From Bacteroidales bacterium (GTDB lineage Bacteria; Bacteroidota; Bacteroidia; Bacteroidales; UBA10428): a stretch of 8,970 nucleotides of DNA. This document shows positions 1 to 8,970 of this stretch, in pieces. Made by a program: the position numbers and the translations under genes. The notes beneath the pieces were generated by a model. The model was not told the origin of the DNA. It searched no databases and worked only from the letters and a program-made list of their open reading frames with translations. The stretch is from contig JAFGOZ010000386.1 of the NCBI GenBank assembly GCA_016926235.1, positions 1 to 8,970 of the forward strand, read 5' to 3'. Each line of letters begins with the position of its first letter. Positions within the stretch are counted from its first letter, which is position 1.

Positions 1-368
1 GTCCTACCTACATAATCATCAGAATTAACTCGATTAAAGAGAACATCAAATTTCTTTAGTTGAAACTGACGAAACACCTTTTGTGGAATATCAGCAGACT
101 TTGCGTTATTATCCTCCGCTAATATATCTATGATATTATCCATCTTTAAAATAGGATACCCATTTCCCTCTTCGTTCATTGCCACCGAAATACCGTACTG
201 TGGATTGGGTGCTATTATTTTAGTCTTTATATGTTCTTTTGATGTTATAGTTGCCTCATTCCTCAGAAAAGAGGGATGCCAATAATCTGCATCAAAACGC
301 ATTTCCTGTCCTAATTCAGAAAGGGAAACCACTGAATATTCTATATTCTTGAATTGCCTTATTTCCAT
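1..368 (-). CDS. hsdS: Restriction-modification specificity subunit (HsdS-like), incomplete
   Basis: This open frame reads about 122 residues from an ATG at 368 leftwards and leaves the window without a stop. The product would be the DNA-recognition subunit of the neighbouring restriction-modification enzyme, choosing the target through its target-recognition domains (TRDs). The visible part fits the first TRD of HsdS proteins: a segment reading PQYGISVAMNEEGNGYPILK followed by a KKFDVLFNRVNSDDYVG segment, the familiar 'GDILFNRTNS.E.VG' pattern of the family. Its ATG shares one base with the stop of the upstream gene (TAATG), which indicates translational coupling and joint production with the methyltransferase-nuclease. 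The second TRD and the conserved spacer helices lie outside the window, so intactness cannot be judged. Family assignment is fairly sure; the target sequence cannot be predicted. Confidence 0.85.
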   Translation of the reverse strand, partial: MEIRQFKNIEYSVVSLSELGQEMRFDADYWHPSFLRNEATITSKEHIKTKIIAPNPQYGISVAMNEEGNGYPILKMDNIIDILAEDNNAKSADIPQKVFRQFQLKKFDVLFNRVNSDDYVGR

Positions 369-2587
369 TATTTTGTTATGAAATCAAATGACAAATCATT
401 TAACTTTATTCTTTCTCTTGCCCAACTCTCAAACGCATCTGCAATAAATGAAAGGTCGGTTTGATAAATTGGATTTTTATTTTCATCTAACACCATATTC
501 CCTTCATCGTCTTTAAGAAATATGTAATCTCCTGAATTATTTTTAAACGGAAGTTTGCTGGTTGCAAAAAATATTGGATAATCTATAACTTCTTCGTTTT
601 CCCTATATTTTCTAAGAAACAAAAGACTTGTTTTAGTACCAGTATGTGGCTTAAAACTATTGCCGTGCAACCCAATAACAGCTAAAATTCTTGCTTTGGT
701 TGTCACATATTTCCTAACATACTTTTCATTACTATTATTGAAAATACCTTGTGGCAAAACAATCACTGCTCTCCCGCCATCTTTCAATAAATCAATTACT
801 CTTTCAATAAATAGAATATGCCTATCAACTTTCTCCCAATTGCTTTCATTCTTCTTGAAAATGAGAATTTCTTTCATACGGGGTGTAAGTTGTGGCTCAA
901 ATAACTCACCATCTAATACACCTTCAAGCAATTTTTGTGATATCGTTTGACAAGCAAAATGTTGGTCATCTTCCTGCTCCAAATCAATATCTTCACTTTT
1001 GTTCAATTCTTTTATGGTCGAGAAAACATCGTTAATTCCATCATCGGAAAAAGTTACTCCAAATTCATCAGCGATAGTTTTAACCATTGACTTAATTCTT
1101 GTAATATCGATTTTATAATTGTATCGATATCCTAATATATCAGAATAGAGATTTATAAGTGATTTTTCCTGAATATCCCCTGCAAAAGGTGGATTACTCA
1201 TGACAATATCAAATTTCAATAATTTATTCTTTTCCCCAGTACCTAATTCTTCTTTGTTTAATTCTACAGTAATTTCAGGTGTCCATTTTGAATGTTCCAA
1301 TGAATTCTGCTTAAAAATGTGAGTTTTCCCATCACCTGCAATTAACATAATCGCTCTTGAGATTTTCGCTGATTTCTCATCAAAATCGATACCCCATAAA
1401 TATTTTGATGCGTAATTTACTTTGCTTTTCTCAGAAGTTAGGTTGTTTTTCTTCCAAACATATTCCATAGTATGGACTAAGAACCCAGCACTCCCACAAG
1501 CTGGGTCAATAACATATTCTTTGTTTTTGGGATTAATCATCCTGACGCAGAAATCAATAATAGCTCTCGGAGTAAAATACTGACCTTTCTTGCTCTTGGC
1601 TACATCTGGAATTAAATATTCAAAGGCTTCATCAATTATTCTTAAATTCGATGAAAATAATTTTATCTCAGTAAGTTCACCTACGCACACATTCAAATGC
1701 TCTGCTGTAAGCTCTATCTTATCTGAAGCAGAAAATATACCATGCCACTCTCTTTTGGCTTCATCGAAAAGTTTCCCTATCTCCCTTTTTGTGACTTCAG
1801 ATGATTTATATTGACGAAATAACAAAGATTTATCTTTACGATTTTCAGCTTCATACTCATCATATAGTTTCGCATATATTAATTTAAATATTTCAGTAAA
1901 ACTATCTGCCCCTGAGTTTGCTAAGACAAGTTCTTCTAAAACCTCAATTATCGTACGAAGATTAAATTGTTTGTATTCGTTTATCGTATCTAACTCAATT
2001 AAAGTCCATTTTCGGCTTAGTATTATGTCCTTAATTGAAGCAGCAGGGTGTTCCTCATCTTTAACAAGTTGATATTCTGGTTCTGTTGGTATATCAGGCA
2101 AACTATCATCAAATTCTTTGGGATAAGGTCTGAATAATCTTGTTATGGATTTACCGTTTATGCCAACTCCCAATGGTGAACCTTCATTATTAAGGTAACT
2201 TTTTAATTGTTGAAGATTATTTTTTTGGTTAGGTGCTTTTACTTCAACCAATATCCAAGGAGTTTCTTCATCACCTTGATATACAACTATATCTGCTCGA
2301 CCTCTACCATTTCTTCCAAAACTCACGTTTTGTTCACATCTAAATCTGGAAACTGGGTAATGATATTGCTCACTTAGTTCAAATAAGAATAACTGCCTGA
2401 CAATTTCTTCAGGTGCTGATTTGTTATTTCCAGCATTATAAACCAACTTCTCTTTACCCTCCTTGTCATGGCTTTTAATATACCACTTACCGACTTCTTT
2501 TTCAAAAAAATTAAGAAAGGGAACATATTGTTTTAATAAGGATAAATCTGTCTCCCAGTTAGGTAAAATCTTTGATAATACATCCAT
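368..2587 (-). CDS. Fused nuclease / N6-adenine DNA methyltransferase (BcgI-like RM subunit)
   Basis: The 739-residue protein carries both restriction and modification activities. Residues about 55-155 look like the HsdR N-terminal nuclease fold: an APEEIVRQ helix, then D99 in a RADIVVY strand and E115/K117 in an LVEVKAPN strand, giving a PD-(D/E)xK site. Residues about 300-680 form an HsdM-like N6-adenine methyltransferase: KGQYFTPR (334-341), AdoMet motif I DPACGSAGF (361-369), catalytic NPPF (465-468), and a later GGRAVIVLPQGIF strand-turn (604-616). An HsdS-like gene overlaps its stop codon, so RM and S subunits are probably made together, as in BcgI-type systems where cutting and methylation share one polypeptide. 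No separate HsdR or HsdM is visible, though one could lie beyond the left edge. About 100 extra residues separate NPPF from the GGRAVIVLP segment. All key catalytic residues are present, so it looks functional. Confidence 0.92.
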   Translation of the reverse strand: MDVLSKILPNWETDLSLLKQYVPFLNFFEKEVGKWYIKSHDKEGKEKLVYNAGNNKSAPEEIVRQLFLFELSEQYHYPVSRFRCEQNVSFGRNGRGRADIVVYQGDEETPWILVEVKAPNQKNNLQQLKSYLNNEGSPLGVGINGKSITRLFRPYPKEFDDSLPDIPTEPEYQLVKDEEHPAASIKDIILSRKWTLIELDTINEYKQFNLRTIIEVLEELVLANSGADSFTEIFKLIYAKLYDEYEAENRKDKSLLFRQYKSSEVTKREIGKLFDEAKREWHGIFSASDKIELTAEHLNVCVGELTEIKLFSSNLRIIDEAFEYLIPDVAKSKKGQYFTPRAIIDFCVRMINPKNKEYVIDPACGSAGFLVHTMEYVWKKNNLTSEKSKVNYASKYLWGIDFDEKSAKISRAIMLIAGDGKTHIFKQNSLEHSKWTPEITVELNKEELGTGEKNKLLKFDIVMSNPPFAGDIQEKSLINLYSDILGYRYNYKIDITRIKSMVKTIADEFGVTFSDDGINDVFSTIKELNKSEDIDLEQEDDQHFACQTISQKLLEGVLDGELFEPQLTPRMKEILIFKKNESNWEKVDRHILFIERVIDLLKDGGRAVIVLPQGIFNNSNEKYVRKYVTTKARILAVIGLHGNSFKPHTGTKTSLLFLRKYRENEEVIDYPIFFATSKLPFKNNSGDYIFLKDDEGNMVLDENKNPIYQTDLSFIADAFESWARERIKLNDLSFDFITK

Positions 2588-2726: not shown

Positions 2727-4103
2727 CTACACATTTTTTCTAAATGAATTCTTAACCTTTATACTACAGGTTGCTTTATAAAATAAACTGCCTTCCTTTT
2801 TCATCATTTCAAAAAGTTCAGTTGCATACTTCTTCTCAATAAGGTAACTGTCGAAAATGGTGTAAATAGTGGCATCAGGGTGTGAATTGATGAACTTCTG
2901 ATAAATAATTTCATTTACAAGTTTGCTTTCCAGTAGCATCACGAAATTGAAGAAATCCTCATATGCTTTAGCCTTCATGCCATCCATGTACTTAGTTATT
3001 CGGGGAAATATTTTTACAATCTGCTTTTTATTCACATTCCGTGATTTTGATGTCGAGTTGAACCAATTCTTGATGACGATATCTTTGATTTGGTCACGGT
3101 CAATATCTTTATTCGGAAATACTAATTTCTTGATTGCTGAATAAAAGTCACCGCTTTCTAATAATCGTTTAAACATATATACCTCGTTCTCAAAGAGCAT
3201 TTTTTCAACCTCTGATGTATGCTCAATAATATTTCCCGAAAGGATTTTGTAAACGACAAAAGCAGTTGAACTACCAAAGTCCAACTCTACCAATCCCTTA
3301 CTATCACTATCCAAAACGAAAAGCCTTAATTCCTTTGGCATGCCATTAATTGTAGTAAAGAACCTGTTACAGACATTTGAATATGTGCTATAAAATCTCC
3401 CATTTGATATGTTAAAAATATAGTACATGCACGAGTTCAACCTGCCAATTGTAATATGGGTTTCAGCATATAATTTTTTGACATAGTGCATTGCGCCATC
3501 AGCATCGAATTTTATATTCGGCAATGCACAGAATTGATGAAGGATTGATGGAATGGATTTGAATTCAGAGAGGTTAACCGCCTCTGCCTTATCTTTAAGC
3601 CTAACACCAAATTTTTCATTCAGTTTTTTTGCTTTACTTTCTTTTACAGCTATCTCATGCTGGCTGATTATTGAATTTGAATAAACATCAGTAAACCTAT
3701 AATAAGTTGAAGGAGCGGTAAATCTGTATTTATTCGCTTCATGGAATGTTTTAGCTTCAATTATCCCAAGGGTCTTGAGTTTACGAGTTATTATATTGAA
3801 ATAATTCTTCGACTTCAAAGGTTCAATATCCCTTGCAAACATCCTTACAAATGTTTTATCATACTGGCATCTTAAAGTGTCATAGCTAACATGCTGACGC
3901 TCCAAAAGGACGTGTATGAAATAGTACATGGCAGGAATATATTTATGCAGTTTTTTCCCTTCAATAATATCCAAGTAACTTGTTCCATTATTTCTTCTTA
4001 CCTGAACGGTATAGTACGAATTAGGCTTAATCAGTTCTTCCAGAATAAGGTTCTCTGGCTTATATAACTTTATTGAAACAGTATCTTCTTTTACCGTTGC
4101 CAT
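2727..4103 (-). CDS. Divergent family-A DNA polymerase-like protein with winged-helix-like N-terminus
   Basis: I do not recognise this 458-residue protein as a named gene, but its C-terminal half follows the motif order of family-A (Pol I-like) polymerases. GRFYSTYSN (235-243) resembles the GRLSS..PN segment. LVELDFGSS (271-279) resembles motif A, with D275 in the catalytic position. GDFYSAIKKLVF (318-329) resembles the G-D-I-H..TA..VF segment, and R336-x3-K340 followed by F348 resembles the O-helix R-x3-K...Y. FPRITKYM follows, then a helix with LLESKLVNEII, and IYTIFDSYLIEK (413-424) resembles motif C, with HDE replaced by F417-D418-S419. Residues about 55-130 look like a winged helix. No 3'-5' exonuclease domain is apparent, and the whole is far shorter than Pol I (about 930 residues). 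Both catalytic aspartates survive, so activity is possible. A role in replicating the element is inferred from the family and from the regulators around it. A non-polymerase replication initiator is the main alternative. Confidence 0.6.
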   Translation of the reverse strand: MATVKEDTVSIKLYKPENLILEELIKPNSYYTVQVRRNNGTSYLDIIEGKKLHKYIPAMYYFIHVLLERQHVSYDTLRCQYDKTFVRMFARDIEPLKSKNYFNIITRKLKTLGIIEAKTFHEANKYRFTAPSTYYRFTDVYSNSIISQHEIAVKESKAKKLNEKFGVRLKDKAEAVNLSEFKSIPSILHQFCALPNIKFDADGAMHYVKKLYAETHITIGRLNSCMYYIFNISNGRFYSTYSNVCNRFFTTINGMPKELRLFVLDSDSKGLVELDFGSSTAFVVYKILSGNIIEHTSEVEKMLFENEVYMFKRLLESGDFYSAIKKLVFPNKDIDRDQIKDIVIKNWFNSTSKSRNVNKKQIVKIFPRITKYMDGMKAKAYEDFFNFVMLLESKLVNEIIYQKFINSHPDATIYTIFDSYLIEKKYATELFEMMKKEGSLFYKATCSIKVKNSFRKNV

Positions 4104-4131
4104 ACCTATCAGAATTTATCCTGAAAAAGAG

Positions 4132-4192
4132 AAAGTGAGTACAGGGGGGGATATCCTTCCCCTTCGGTTATATTAATATATGTCCTCACTTT
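4132..4192 (-). promoter_or_regulatory. Stem-loop in the leader of the polymerase-like gene
   Basis: On the minus strand AAAGTGAG-g-ACA (4192 to 4181) pairs with TGT-a-CTCACTTT (4143 to 4132), giving 8 + 3 base pairs around one mismatch. The loop contains TATATTAATATA and a GGGG that can pair either with the C run at 4144-4150 or, as GAAGGGGAA, with TTCCCCTTC further upstream (4228-4220). These pairings exclude each other, which is how attenuators and copy-control leaders are often built. The hairpin ends 28 bases before the ATG at 4103. A DNA-level role at an origin would also fit. Confidence 0.4.
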
Positions 4193-4387
4193 TATTATCT
4201 CCCAATATAGAGAGCGTATGAAGGGGAATGACATATTCCATTTGATAAGAATACCAGCAATACCTATTCGTTGAAATCTGAAGTGTCGAGACGTGTGGTT
4301 TAAAGAAAAATAATCACCAGATTTTCCTCTTTTTATGCATGGCGAAGTATTTATATTTGAATTTAACATAGAATATCATTTTTTAAT

Positions 4388-4420
4388 TAGCATGGCTTAA
4401 TCTCTTGTCAAGCCATGCTA
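4388..4420. terminator. Perfect 11-bp hairpin downstream of the RHH gene
   Basis: TAGCATGGCTT (4388-4398) and AAGCCATGCTA (4410-4420) pair perfectly around an 11-base loop, 23 bases after the stop of the ribbon-helix-helix gene. On the minus strand, the direction of that gene, no U-run follows the stem. On the plus strand TTTTCATT follows. It may be a terminator, an mRNA 3'-end stabiliser or a protein-binding dyad; position favours a 3'-end function. Confidence 0.5.
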
Positions 4421-4443: not shown

Positions 4444-4644
4444 TTAAATCTTCAGCGTGATGTTGCCTGACTGGTCGATTTCGTTGAAAAGCCTTCTTAC
4501 AGCTTCACGAACCGTTTCTGAGCAGGAAATGCCAGATGCTCTCCTGATTTCTTTCAAACGCTCAATCATGCTGCTGTCCATCCTACAATAAAGATTTTTT
4601 TCTTTAATCTCAAATTTGGCTTTGTAACCTTTTACTTGTTCCAT
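4444..4644 (-). CDS. Small ribbon-helix-helix (CopG/Arc-like) DNA-binding protein
   Basis: The 66-residue product has the layout of a ribbon-helix-helix repressor: a short strand around residues 17-22 (NLYCRM), helix A at about 24-37 (SSMIERLKEIRRAS), a turn GIS, and helix B at about 41-54 (CSETVREAVRRLFN) with the typical S-E-x-V-R-E-A-x-R pattern. Such proteins bind DNA as dimers through the paired strands and commonly regulate plasmid copy number, partition or conjugation genes. It lies upstream of the polymerase-like gene in the same direction, separated by a hairpin and a structured 340-base region, so control of that gene is a reasonable inference. The ATG at 4644 is the only good start. 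It could instead be an antitoxin, but no toxin-like gene overlaps it. Confidence 0.75.
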   Translation of the reverse strand: MEQVKGYKAKFEIKEKNLYCRMDSSMIERLKEIRRASGISCSETVREAVRRLFNEIDQSGNITLKI

Positions 4645-4753: not shown

Positions 4754-5401
4754 TTATTTCGACAATTTTAACTCAGGGCGAATAATATTTTCCGTTTTTT
4801 CATCCCAAAACAGATTACTAACCATAACGAAATTCAGGATAAGACCAAACCAGATTTTATTCATATCCCAGACCATCTTTTTAAGCCTTTTAACCTGTTC
4901 TGGGGTTAATAAATCAGTCTCACTGTCGATGCTTTCAATAGCTACACGTTTTGCTTCTCTAACTACATCGAAACCAAAAACATTCTGATATTGAAAGAAT
5001 AAAACATAAAGTTCGTAAAGAGTGAAATGTGATATGAGATACTCTGCCAATAGGTCGTTTAATTGATGAGCGTAATTGATATCAAAATATGAACTCATAT
5101 CAGGAACGCACTTTGAAATAATGTTCTCAGGCGTATTTAAGTACCCTTTATATACCATGTCAGTAGATAAATCATGGACTTGGAATAAGAAGACCTTACG
5201 CTGGTCTACGATTTCACCTGCCCATTTTACTTTCCTTCTATCCAGCTTAGTGAAGCAAGTATACTTTAATACATAATCACCATCGTCATTTTTATCAACG
5301 ACCACATTCAGGTAACCACTTTCTTTGTGTGAGTTGATTTCGCATCTTATGCGGTCACTCACATTTTCGCTGTTAACGATTTTTTCTAATTTATTTTTCA
5401 T
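4754..5401 (-). CDS. Conserved-looking 215-residue protein of unknown function
   Basis: I do not recognise this protein. It has no signal peptide or clear membrane segment and looks cytoplasmic. The first 90 residues are mixed and charged, with alternating hydrophobic strands (GYLNVVVD, GDYVLKYTCF, KVFLFQVHDL) that suggest a beta-rich N-terminal domain. Residues about 110-200 are helical, with aromatic-rich stretches (LYELYVLFFQYQNVFGFD; KKMVWDMNKIWFGLILNFVM) that could form a hydrophobic interface. The ATG at 5401 lies 36 bases beyond the end of the U-run that closes the structured RNA at 5437-5614, in the same direction. The RNA is therefore either an attenuating leader for this gene or an independent RNA sharing its locus. 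The downstream RHH gene follows after 109 bases. Co-function with the RNA or the polymerase-like protein is conjecture from position only. Confidence 0.6.
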   Translation of the reverse strand: MKNKLEKIVNSENVSDRIRCEINSHKESGYLNVVVDKNDDGDYVLKYTCFTKLDRRKVKWAGEIVDQRKVFLFQVHDLSTDMVYKGYLNTPENIISKCVPDMSSYFDINYAHQLNDLLAEYLISHFTLYELYVLFFQYQNVFGFDVVREAKRVAIESIDSETDLLTPEQVKRLKKMVWDMNKIWFGLILNFVMVSNLFWDEKTENIIRPELKLSK

Positions 5402-5436
5402 AATTTTTAAGAGTTAATTATTAATAAATTTCAAAT

Positions 5437-5457
5437 AAAAAAGCCTCCAACTATAAC
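5437..5457 (-). terminator. 3' arm of closing stem plus U-run
   Basis: The 3' arm of the long closing stem ends in GGAGGCT and runs straight into a six-T tract on the minus strand (5442-5437). This has the form of an intrinsic terminator whose 5' arm lies 65 bases upstream, not in a short local hairpin. A rival pairing of that distant arm would weaken termination, so conditional read-through into the gene starting at 5401 is possible. Confidence 0.55.
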
Positions 5458-5614
5458 TTCAACACATCAGCAAACCTGCTAAATCAATCTTTAGCAATTC
5501 CGTTTGCTCTCTCTATGTTTTGGTTATAATTGGCGGCTCGTTCTCCTTCTATTGCTGGAAGGAGCATTTTAGTCACCAGTCTTCTCTCTTGACTTTATTA
5601 TACAATAATAAGTC
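5437..5614 (-). ncRNA. Highly structured RNA, about 178 bases, with own promoter and terminator
   Basis: Read on the minus strand, the segment starts just after a good promoter and folds nearly throughout. A 5' hairpin pairs GACTTATTA (5614-5606) with TAATAAAGTC (5600-5591), one base bulged. A second pairs CTCCTTC with GAAGGAG (5564-5558 with 5549-5543). A 16-position closing stem joins AGCCGCCAATTATAAC (5538-5523) to GTTATAGTTGGAGGCT (5457-5442) with 14 Watson-Crick pairs, one G-U and one mismatch. It encloses a hairpin with a 6-bp lower stem GCAAAC/GTTTGC (5507-5502, 5475-5470) and a 7-bp upper stem TGCTAAA/TTTAGCA (5496-5490, 5483-5477). Five to six Us follow. The U-run and the G-U pair mark the minus strand as the RNA-producing one. 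I cannot match it to a known RNA family. It could be an attenuating leader of the 215-residue gene or a free regulatory RNA. Confidence 0.65.
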
Positions 5615-5618
5615 TCTA

Positions 5619-5650
5619 CAAATATAAAACATGAATTCTAATAAAACAAG
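5619..5650 (-). promoter_or_regulatory. Bacteroidota-type promoter driving the structured RNA
   Basis: The minus strand has the -7 box TATATTTG (5626-5619), an exact TAnnTTTG match, and a CTTG -33 box (5650-5647; consensus TTTG) with a spacer of 20 bases. Initiation would fall a few bases downstream, near 5614-5610, right at the start of the first hairpin of the structured RNA. Confidence 0.7.
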
Positions 5651-5688
5651 GGGTTATTCACTGATTATCAGCATTTTGACGAATGTAA

Positions 5689-5746
5689 ATTCTTAATTAA
5701 GAAAAGTCATAAAACATTGAAAATCAATGTCAGTATTCTTAATTAA
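5689..5746. repeat. Two direct repeats flanking a short hairpin, upstream of the RNA promoter
   Basis: ATTCTTAATTAA occurs at 5689-5700 and 5735-5746, 46 bases apart. The first copy lies in a 14-base perfect palindrome, TTCTTAATTAAGAA (5690-5703). Between them ACATTGA and TCAATGT (5714-5720, 5724-5730) form a 7-bp dyad around AAA. The array sits 39-96 bases upstream of the RNA promoter and downstream of the Xre-type gene, so it could be a regulator-binding site or the 3' end of that gene's message. Nothing else was seen in the remainder of 5651-5867. Confidence 0.45.
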
Positions 5747-5867
5747 AAACTGTTTTGGGATGAATGCATAAAATACGTAGACGAAGGTGTATGAGAAAAT
5801 ATAAGATTTTGGTTGGTTTTATAAATTTCCAGATTGTTGTACGTCATATTTTGGTTGCATTATGTAT

Positions 5868-6107
5868 TTATTCGAAGTCCACGAAAAGGTCTGCCAAGTC
5901 AACACCCAAGGTGTCAGCCAATTCAAGAAGGCTTAAAAGGGTGATATTCTTTCCGTTTTCTGCTCGGCTTAAAGTATTGCGATGCAAATTCAGATATCCA
6001 GCTAATTCCATCTGGGAGTATCCATTGTTAATACGGTATTCTCGGATTAAGCCAGCAATGCTGCCAAGTTTCTTATAATATTCCTGCGGATACGTTTTCT
6101 TAATCAC
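5868..6107 (-). CDS. Xre/Cro-type helix-turn-helix regulator
   Basis: The 79-residue protein is almost entirely one HTH_3 domain. Residues about 15-74 contain IAGLIREYRINNGYSQMELA (helices 1-2), LNLHRNTLSRAENGKN (recognition helix and the usual R-x-E-x-G turn) and LLSLLELADTLGVDLADLF (helices 4-5). Proteins of this size usually act as dimeric repressors of their own and neighbouring genes. The start is GTG at 6107; the next in-frame methionine (M33) lies inside the domain, so GTG is well supported. A TGGTCA/TGACCA dyad ends directly against this GTG, suggesting autorepression. It lies in a cluster of small regulators, so it probably controls part of the mobile element, such as the structured RNA or the divergent pair to its right. 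Confidence 0.85.
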   Translation of the reverse strand: MIKKTYPQEYYKKLGSIAGLIREYRINNGYSQMELAGYLNLHRNTLSRAENGKNITLLSLLELADTLGVDLADLFVDFE

Positions 6108-6347: not shown

Positions 6348-6677
6348 TTACAGGGATTTGAAAAATGACGTTGCATCCAGACCATAGTATTTTATCAGTT
6401 TCAATAGTTTCTCCGAATTCCAATAAACCTGTCCTGTGGTTATTAATAGGTAGGTATATCGTGAAATCCTAACACTTCTGCAAAGTTCAGCAGTACTGAT
6501 ACCATCCTGTTTTTGTAATTCAAGTAGTCGCCCTGCTATAGCTAACATAAATGTTTGGTCTTCTGGTGTCACAGGTTTGGGTGGTTGGTACTGTTTTTCC
6601 GATTGCTTTGGCTTTGCTGACTTGCTTGATTTCTGTCTCATTGACGAAAATTTGATGTAAAGGTAATTGTTGTCCAT
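6348..6677 (-). CDS. Small helix-turn-helix protein, divergent Xre-like
   Basis: The 109-residue product has a basic, low-complexity N-terminal stretch (about residues 14-36, rich in K, Q, S and P) and a helical domain from about 41 to 107. In the latter, ISTAELCRSVRISRYTYLLI (60-79) looks like the helix-turn-helix and NSEKLLKLIKYYGLDATSFF the trailing helices seen in Xre-type domains. The usual recognition-helix signature is not clear, so assignment to a regulator is moderate. The ATG at 6677 lies within the right half of a palindrome shared with the divergent gene. A second ATG at 6641 (M13) would put the whole palindrome upstream of the gene. The arrangement suggests that it binds these palindromes and controls itself and the plus-strand neighbour. 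Confidence 0.65.
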   Translation of the reverse strand: MDNNYLYIKFSSMRQKSSKSAKPKQSEKQYQPPKPVTPEDQTFMLAIAGRLLELQKQDGISTAELCRSVRISRYTYLLITTGQVYWNSEKLLKLIKYYGLDATSFFKSL

Positions 6678-7080: not shown

Positions 7081-7659
7081 ATGCTTATGAAAGTTTCCAT
7101 CTATGCCAGAATATCAAAAGAGACCTCTGATGCAACCAATCAGTTATTCTTGCTTCGTTCCTATTGCGAAAGCATGAATTATGAAATTATAAATGAATAT
7201 GTCGATGTCGTTTCAGGTGGCTCACCTAATCGACCAGAATTTAACCGAATGATGTCAGATGCATCAAAGCGTAAATTTGATATGCTATTGTTCTTCGCTC
7301 TTGACCGTTTAACACGTGAAGGGACAAGGAAAACAATTCAGTATCTTCAATTATTAGATGATTATGGTATTGTTTATAAATCATATAGCGAACAGTATAT
7401 TGATAGTTCGGGAATTTTTAAAGATGTAGTTATCAGTTTATTGTCAAGTCTTGCACTTCAGGAGAGACTTCGTATAGGTGAAAGAGTTAGAGCAGGTTTA
7501 GCACGTGCACGCCAATCCAACAGAATAGGTGGACGCCCCCGTTTGGATGAAAGAAAAATCGACAAAATCAAGCAAATGAAATTGAAAGGAAGCAGTATTG
7601 TTGAAATTTCAAAAACACTTAAAATCAGTAGGGGGAGTGTATATCAATATCTTGATTAA
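7081..7659 (+). CDS. Small serine recombinase (resolvase/invertase family)
   Basis: The 192-residue protein has the full layout of small serine recombinases. The N-terminal catalytic domain opens with IYARIS (7-12), where S12 is the nucleophile and R10 the partner arginine. DRLTRE (75-80) supplies the two further active-site arginines, R76 and R79. The long E helix spans about 112-147 and ends in the typical GGRPR (150-154). Residues about 157-190 form the C-terminal DNA-binding HTH (IVEISKTLKISRGSVYQYL). Length matches the 180-200 residues usual for resolvases and invertases, and all key residues are present. Its likely role is resolving plasmid or element multimers, or inverting a local segment. 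Large serine integrases are excluded by size. The ATG at 7087 (M3) is an equally good start. Imperfect direct repeats just upstream are candidate recombination or control sites. Confidence 0.95.
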   Translation: MLMKVSIYARISKETSDATNQLFLLRSYCESMNYEIINEYVDVVSGGSPNRPEFNRMMSDASKRKFDMLLFFALDRLTREGTRKTIQYLQLLDDYGIVYKSYSEQYIDSSGIFKDVVISLLSSLALQERLRIGERVRAGLARARQSNRIGGRPRLDERKIDKIKQMKLKGSSIVEISKTLKISRGSVYQYLD

Positions 7660-7809: not shown

Positions 7810-8970
7810 ATGTCACACGTTGATGTTGATGCCTTTGAAATTGCCATTTCTTTAATAGATGACGGTTTCCTGTTTGAAGATTTCGCTAAATCATTCCTCA
7901 GTGCGATTTTCAGCTACAGTTTTACTCCAGCAGGTGGAGTAAAGGACAGAGGTATCGATGCGTTTCAGCACATTTATACAAGGAATGATAGGGAAAAGAT
8001 AATTTTCCAGTTCTCCACTGAGCAAGATGCGATAGGAAAAATAAAAAGCAGTATAAAAAAGTTAATTGGGAATAATATAGATTTCGACCAATTCTTTTAT
8101 GTAACCTCTCGCCATCTTACAAACAAAGATATTATTGCTGAAAGCATTTCAGATGAATTTAATAAACCAGTAACCATTTATGATAATTCATGGTTAAAAA
8201 CGTATGCAAACTACAGTCAAACTACCATAAATGCTTATAATATATTCATCGATAGTCATTTGCATGTTTTCAATAAGCCAAGTACAACCGTTGTAGTCGG
8301 AGATTTGGAGAAAGATGCAAGGCTTTATGTATACCTGCGGGAGCAAATTGCAGGTAAGGGTACAGATAAAAGATTAGAGGAAGCACTTGCTGATGCTTTA
8401 ATAATTTTTTCTCTTGAGAGAACAAGTCCAGAGGAAGAAATTTTTAAAACCTCAGATGAAATAAAAAGTGAGGTTAGAAACTATTTGAAATTTGAAACTT
8501 CTGAATTCGAGAAAACAATTGACACCCGACTATCATTTTTATCCGCTAAACCAAGAAAAATTCAATTCCACGCTAAGGGTCAAGGTTATTGTTTACCTTA
8601 TGAAACAAGAGTTGAAATAAGAGATAGAGATATAAAAGATACAGGTCTTCTTGATACCTTTCTTCTTCAGACAGGGAATACGTTGAAATATTATCTTAAA
8701 GAAGAGGGAGCGTTAGCGAGAAATTTAAGCATCCTAATAGAAAATGTTGTAAGGGAAATTTATTATCAACAGGGTTTGGAATTTGCGAATTTTATTGTTA
8801 ATGGGGAAAGTAAAAGTGTAATAGAAAAAGAATTAGGAGATATTATTGGATTAGCAATTGACAAAAGTCCAGTTGTTCTGAAGAACAAGGAAAGAGTAAA
8901 AACCGCCATGTTGATGACTATTAGGGACATGGTATATAATGGGACATCTGAGCAAAAACACTACTTAAGA
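7810..8970 (+). CDS. Restriction-nuclease-like (Mrr-type) protein, incomplete
   Basis: The frame is open from the ATG at 7810 to the right edge (387 residues, no stop), so the gene is cut by the window. The N-terminus resembles Mrr-like PD-(D/E)xK nucleases: an FEDFAKSFLS helix (22-31) with E23, then GGVKDRGIDAF (42-52) with D46 and D50, then a hydrophobic strand KIIFQFS (63-69), where the family usually has (E/Q)xK. Here it reads Q67-F68-S69, so the catalytic lysine is absent or has moved, perhaps to K77 in the following helix. From about residue 90 a Rossmann-like pattern follows (FDQFFYVTS, VTIYDN), and beyond 170 the protein is long, charged and helical with no motif I recognise. A defence role is inferred from the nuclease-like start and the RM operon in the same element; the partner genes would lie to the right. 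Confidence 0.7.
   Translation, partial: MSHVDVDAFEIAISLIDDGFLFEDFAKSFLSAIFSYSFTPAGGVKDRGIDAFQHIYTRNDREKIIFQFSTEQDAIGKIKSSIKKLIGNNIDFDQFFYVTSRHLTNKDIIAESISDEFNKPVTIYDNSWLKTYANYSQTTINAYNIFIDSHLHVFNKPSTTVVVGDLEKDARLYVYLREQIAGKGTDKRLEEALADALIIFSLERTSPEEEIFKTSDEIKSEVRNYLKFETSEFEKTIDTRLSFLSAKPRKIQFHAKGQGYCLPYETRVEIRDRDIKDTGLLDTFLLQTGNTLKYYLKEEGALARNLSILIENVVREIYYQQGLEFANFIVNGESKSVIEKELGDIIGLAIDKSPVVLKNKERVKTAMLMTIRDMVYNGTSEQKHYLR

Follow-up and report, generated by a model that had tools for sequence, protein, structure and literature searches.

The minus strand of the 8970-nt stretch analysed here (hereafter, the window) encodes, directly upstream of a 215-aa gene, a predicted RNA of about 176 nt whose structure looks real. 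We tentatively interpret the locus, with confidence a little short of even, as a separate small RNA gene that has its own terminator and sits on a plasmid-like Bacteroidota element; its product would act in trans. This interpretation is slightly favoured over that of a leader of the 215-aa gene, and we infer transcription, termination, independence from the 215-aa gene and any regulatory role. The coordinates of the RNA, its signals and the neighbouring genes are collected in Table 1.

In the proposed mechanism, RNA polymerase would use the TTG-N20-TATATTTG promoter to begin transcription near 5612, giving a product of about 176 nt. As its final 100 nt emerge, they would zip into a 37-pair hairpin, and transcription would stop in the U-run at 5437. 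The 215-aa gene would probably start from its own, weaker promoter, which overlaps the terminator, and the RNA would act in trans on a target, with its loops available for base pairing or with a protein bound to it.

Table 1 Features of the window and the basis on which each was assigned.
Feature	Position	Strand	Basis
Methylase with type I features	368-2587	-	gene content
458-aa protein	2727-4103	-	gene content
RHH protein	4444-4644	-	gene content
215-aa gene	4754-5401	-	gene content
Remainder of 215-aa gene, part common to P0002-P0005	4754-5095	-	79-96% identity over 52-53% of query
Residues 1-102 of 215-aa gene, module known elsewhere as a stand-alone protein of about 110 aa	5096-5401	-	25 homologs
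Promoter-like site of 215-aa gene, with one mismatch and overlap with the U-run: TTG, 20 nt, TTTATTTG	5432-5462	-	pattern match
Predicted RNA, about 176 nt	5437-5612	-	first base inferred from promoter; fold z -7.0 (185 nt); structure, pair probabilities
U-run, six U after the hairpin, first two bases paired in MFE	5437-5442	-	sequence, structure
Long interrupted hairpin, 37 pairs (21 A-U, 12 G-C, 4 G-U), including stem 5442-5457/5523-5538	5441-5539	-	-42.1 kcal/mol; pair probabilities at least 0.87
27-codon ORF within the RNA, extending over the long hairpin's 5' arm, stop codon in the apical loop	5484-5567	-	weak coding signal
7-bp hairpin, CUCCUUC/GAAGGAG	5543-5564	-	-8.7 kcal/mol; pair probabilities 0.98-1.0
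Two hairpins of the 5' part, one AT-rich and weak (5611-5595), one small (5594-5571)	5571-5611	-	pair probabilities 0.65-0.84 and 0.75-0.99
Predicted RNA promoter: TTG (in CTTG) 5649-5647, 20-nt spacer, TATATTTG 5626-5619	5619-5649	-	pattern match; consensus as given in PMC7366714
HTH regulator	5868-6107	-	gene content
Second HTH protein	6348-6677	-	gene content
Resolvase	7081-7659	+	gene content

Promoter and terminator of the predicted RNA

Promoters of the Bacteroides housekeeping sigma factor are described as having TAnnTTTG at -7 and TTTG near -33 (PMC7366714). The sequence-only reading had placed such a promoter (TTG, 20 bases, TATATTTG) on the minus strand, and we located it at 5649-5619. 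Its -7 element is the full consensus, and its -33 element, CTTG, is one base away from the TTTG of Bacteroides. The pattern TTG-N17-22-TAnnTTTG has three matches over both strands of the window, and this promoter is the sole one on the minus strand; it was absent from the list produced by a sigma-70-type promoter scan.

At its 3' end the RNA has a Rho-independent terminator, in which the 37-pair hairpin is followed by U6. The U-run said to close the RNA was found at 5442-5437, while the spacing to the next gene, claimed as 36 bases, needed a small correction: 35 nt separate the end of the U-run from the ATG of the 215-aa gene on the same strand. A generic terminator scan that considered only loops of 3-8 did not list this terminator.

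With these signals the predicted gene resembles the intergenic sRNAs of B. thetaiotaomicron, e.g., GibS, for which PMC7366714 takes a start site plus a Rho-independent terminator as the definition: it is alike in its intergenic place, its TAnnTTTG promoter, its Rho-independent terminator and the lack of an assigned protein product. It differs from them in lying on a plasmid-like element, in being predicted from sequence alone, in having no Rfam match and no homolog found, and in a terminator hairpin of 37 pairs.

Folding of the RNA and choice of strand

The 185-nt fold reached -58.9 kcal/mol, whereas its shuffles averaged -33.2 (z -7.0), and none of the 200 shuffles was as stable. Across both strands of the window, the four lowest z-scores among 392 tiles of 180 nt all fell at the RNA locus, the lowest elsewhere being -4.35. 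The RNA had been proposed to fold along its whole length, and the two main elements named for this were recovered. The 16-position long-range stem (5442-5457/5523-5538) has exactly the 15 paired positions claimed, including one G-U, alongside one G.A mismatch, and the MFE adds one pair beyond it (G5539-U5441); the 7-bp hairpin lies at 5564-5543. The 5' hairpin, in contrast, is weak, both in its pair probabilities (0.65-0.84) and in its energy (-1.2 kcal/mol, computed on a 24-mer cut one base off).

Since the plus strand at the locus folds as significantly (z -6.93), the z-score gives no choice of strand. What favours the minus strand is the presence there of the U-run and the promoter, together with the four G-U pairs and the lower hairpin energy (-42.1 vs -31.0 kcal/mol). 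The similar z-scores of the two strands would also suit a hairpin that is a mere strong terminator or a DNA palindrome (an operator, or an insulator separating the HTH gene from the replication operon) with a functionless RNA. The sequence-only reading took the pairing of 15 of 16 positions as support for selection on RNA, but, seen in one sequence, such pairing could also stem from a palindrome in the DNA. Consistent with such an origin, long palindromes without sequence likeness elsewhere also score with the RNA model, the 3x3 internal loop of the hairpin includes one A.C opposition, and a further palindromic stretch (5689-5749) lies just upstream. We nevertheless regard a functionless hairpin as unlikely, given that some 24 nt ahead of the RNA lies a promoter match of its own, that the second hairpin (5564-5543) would be superfluous for a terminator, and that four of the stem pairs are G-U.

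The 27-codon ORF and a possible leader function

The main rival to a separate small RNA, which we consider somewhat unlikely, is that the RNA serves the 215-aa gene as a terminator leader (attenuator). Transcription would again start at 5612 and usually stop at 5437, and read-through would lead to expression of the gene; a bound factor, or ribosomes translating the 27-codon ORF, would perhaps control it. The position of the terminator, on the same strand and 35 nt before the start codon, fits this arrangement, as does the ORF itself, whose span takes in the terminator stem's 5' arm. Its codon score is near the gene median and was reached by 1.0% of 1587 wrong-frame stop-free stretches. The coding signal was weaker once composition was controlled, as 16% of 4224 open shuffles reached the same score. 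An open frame of 27 codons combined with this score had a joint frequency of 0.034 of 20000, so that the ORF may have a coding or leader-peptide function in place of a small RNA. An ATG ORF of at least 27 codons occurred in 211 of 2000 shuffles. Searches with the ORF in plasmids, Pfam and PADLOC gave no match.

The order of folding was followed in growing prefixes of the RNA: the 5' hairpins and the inner hairpin formed first and the outer stem closed last, as in a terminator. With the outer stem forbidden, the fold was 27 kcal/mol worse, which argues against a balanced switch. In prefixes of 90-160 nt, a weak 6-pair alternative helix held the outer end of the 5' arm, so that attenuation could still operate.

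The leader function is further weakened by a promoter-like site belonging to the 215-aa gene itself, from which a free regulator gains a little. This TTG-N20-TTTATTTG site implies a 5' UTR of about 24 nt for the 215-aa gene, and the commonest 5' UTR of B. thetaiotaomicron mRNAs is given as 23 nt (PMC7366714). A promoter-like site 15-150 nt upstream was present for two of the nine genes checked. Both strands of the window together hold 19 promoter-like rows with at most one mismatch, and a chance site within 135 nt is therefore not rare.

The attenuator leader of tetQ in Bacteroides (PMC5418344) is alike in being a structured RNA, in which a short ORF may lie, before a Bacteroidota mobile-element gene. 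tetQ is listed in that source as an attenuator of translation, whereas the locus described here has an obvious terminator and no balanced alternative fold was found for it; the gene downstream of the RNA is also unrelated to resistance.

The gene downstream of the RNA

The 215-aa gene had been described as a gene of unknown function; by its sequence matches it resolves as a fusion of two plasmid proteins. Residues 1-102 match 25 proteins of 88-111 aa with 70-87% identity over 62-100% of the query, and the RNA directly precedes this module, which elsewhere is a separate protein of the 110-aa family. The proteins that share the remainder (P0002-P0005) have N-termini that differ from that of the 215-aa gene.

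Neither part of the fusion had a match below E 0.01 in Pfam, NCBIfam, PHROG or PADLOC, for which the queries were the window protein, P0034, P0045, P0055 and P0003, though not each in each library; PADLOC gave none for the 215-aa protein, P0034 and P0003. A sequence search of the PDB found no relative of the downstream protein. Foldseek with the 110-aa part, based on a poor model (mean pLDDT 65.6), returned 303 matches up to E 10 and none at E <= 0.001. The 110-aa family had no locus in viral contigs (alignment A3), and none in plasmids or phages with P0034 as the only query. No loci of the family were found in 395, 393, 104 and 296 genomes, overlapping samples drawn at the ranks of class, order, family and phylum around the genome that carries the related contig L001 (see below), a result that is uninformative without a positive control.

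The gene order (promoter, RNA, terminator, protein gene), and the occurrence of the 110-aa part as a separate protein that is here fused to another, would be expected if the RNA were an antitoxin or guide-like partner bound by the 110-aa part in the manner of type III toxin-antitoxin systems. In the ToxIN arrangement, an RNA and a terminator stand directly before a small protein gene, as at the RNA locus here. The RNA has no tandem repeats, however: the single array that TRF detected in 5380-5760 (score at least 30) is AT-rich and lies beyond the RNA, at 5381-5406. The PADLOC, PDB and Foldseek results above also speak against an RNA-protein pair, which we regard as very improbable, although the model used for Foldseek is too poor for a judgement on the fold. 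The antitoxin-type RNA that the sequence-only reading had offered as one option is disfavoured by the absence of repeats and of PADLOC or PDB-sequence relatives of the downstream protein. Compared with ToxIN as described in PMC8860590, the RNA here is without repeats and the protein without a toxin-family match.

Search for relatives of the RNA

The whole window was scanned on both strands with cmscan against Rfam 15 (4227 models, E up to 5). Two matches were obtained, each below the gathering threshold and neither at the RNA, which agrees with the earlier statement that no known family fits. Searches of plasmids (11 records) and phages (4 records) with the RNA by blastn returned only pieces covering 10-21% of the query at E of at least 0.02, and blastn in the genome of L001 gave 13 matches of 14-30 bases (best E 0.08) that we took as chance.

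Four exact patterns of the RNA gave one match in viral contigs, in L019. It was rejected as a relative: the match is an 18-mer within a coding gene, in a different reading frame, and the RNA model finds nothing in L019. We also used a covariance model built from the single RNA sequence (R1). Applied to the window and six other loci, R1 matched only the RNA locus and its complement. In 395 Bacteroidota genomes, under stricter filters with which weak matches are lost, it gave two matches in one genome; both are long palindromes with stems unlike the RNA hairpin in sequence, and these were likewise taken as chance.

A plasmid-like element and its candidate replicase

The ends of the window have no terminal overlap. 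The window is probably a plasmid-like Bacteroidota record, judging by its type of promoter, its gene content and one related contig. In a tblastn search of plasmid records with five proteins, four were without a match and the fifth had one, at 21% identity; the HTH regulator and the RHH protein were not found in plasmid records. The related element, L001, is a contig of a Bacteroidota MAG and the sole locus found with the 458-aa protein in the genome contigs searched. BREX genes occupy 2653-7347 of L001, among which PADLOC names BrxA, BrxB and BrxC, and a common replicon core seems to carry differing defence systems, BREX in L001 and a type I-like methylase in the window. An ORF at 7810-8967 on the plus strand continues past the right end of the window, and its residues 22-140 have a weak PADLOC match to the Aga_REase-TIR-PNTD1-PNTD2 model (E 1e-5).

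In its fold, and in carrying the three invariant motifs, the 458-aa protein corresponds to a family A DNA polymerase. N, T or Q stands at the place of the steric-gate glutamate of Pol I, from which we take it that ribonucleotides may be tolerated, and the protein is a candidate plasmid replicase of a kind unnamed in the family libraries used. The leader of its gene is conserved between the window (4104-4420, minus strand) and L001 (460-784). The conserved leader block, AAAAGTGAGGAC ... CCCCCCCTGT(A/C)CTCACTTTCTC, has complementary ends, and a perfect TAGCATGGCTT-type inverted repeat follows the RHH gene. The fold of the whole leader in the window is not unusual (z -0.81). Antisense action of the RNA on this leader was considered and rejected, as four leader tiles ranked 91, 107, 329 and 401 (from 0) of 590 by duplex energy, a ranking that ignores the folds of both partners.

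The HTH regulator encoded upstream of the RNA promoter is similar to models that PADLOC names 'control protein' and that belong to restriction-modification systems (E 1.6e-6). A palindrome at the RNA start (5590-5613) could be a candidate operator for this regulator. The stretch 5689-5749 (fold z -4.5), which lies past the HTH gene and before the RNA promoter, contains the palindrome TTCTTAATTAAGAA in two near-copies, which are possible operators.

Beyond a separate small RNA acting in trans, we also considered that the plasmid is of an undescribed kind and that the RNA has a working function in it. The RNA would either move together with the 110-aa family as a single RNA-protein cassette or be in the service of the replication protein with the family A polymerase fold, e.g., as a primer or copy-number RNA; this we regard as very improbable. 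If transcribed, the RNA would found a new structured-RNA family on a Bacteroidota plasmid lineage that is absent from the plasmid records searched.
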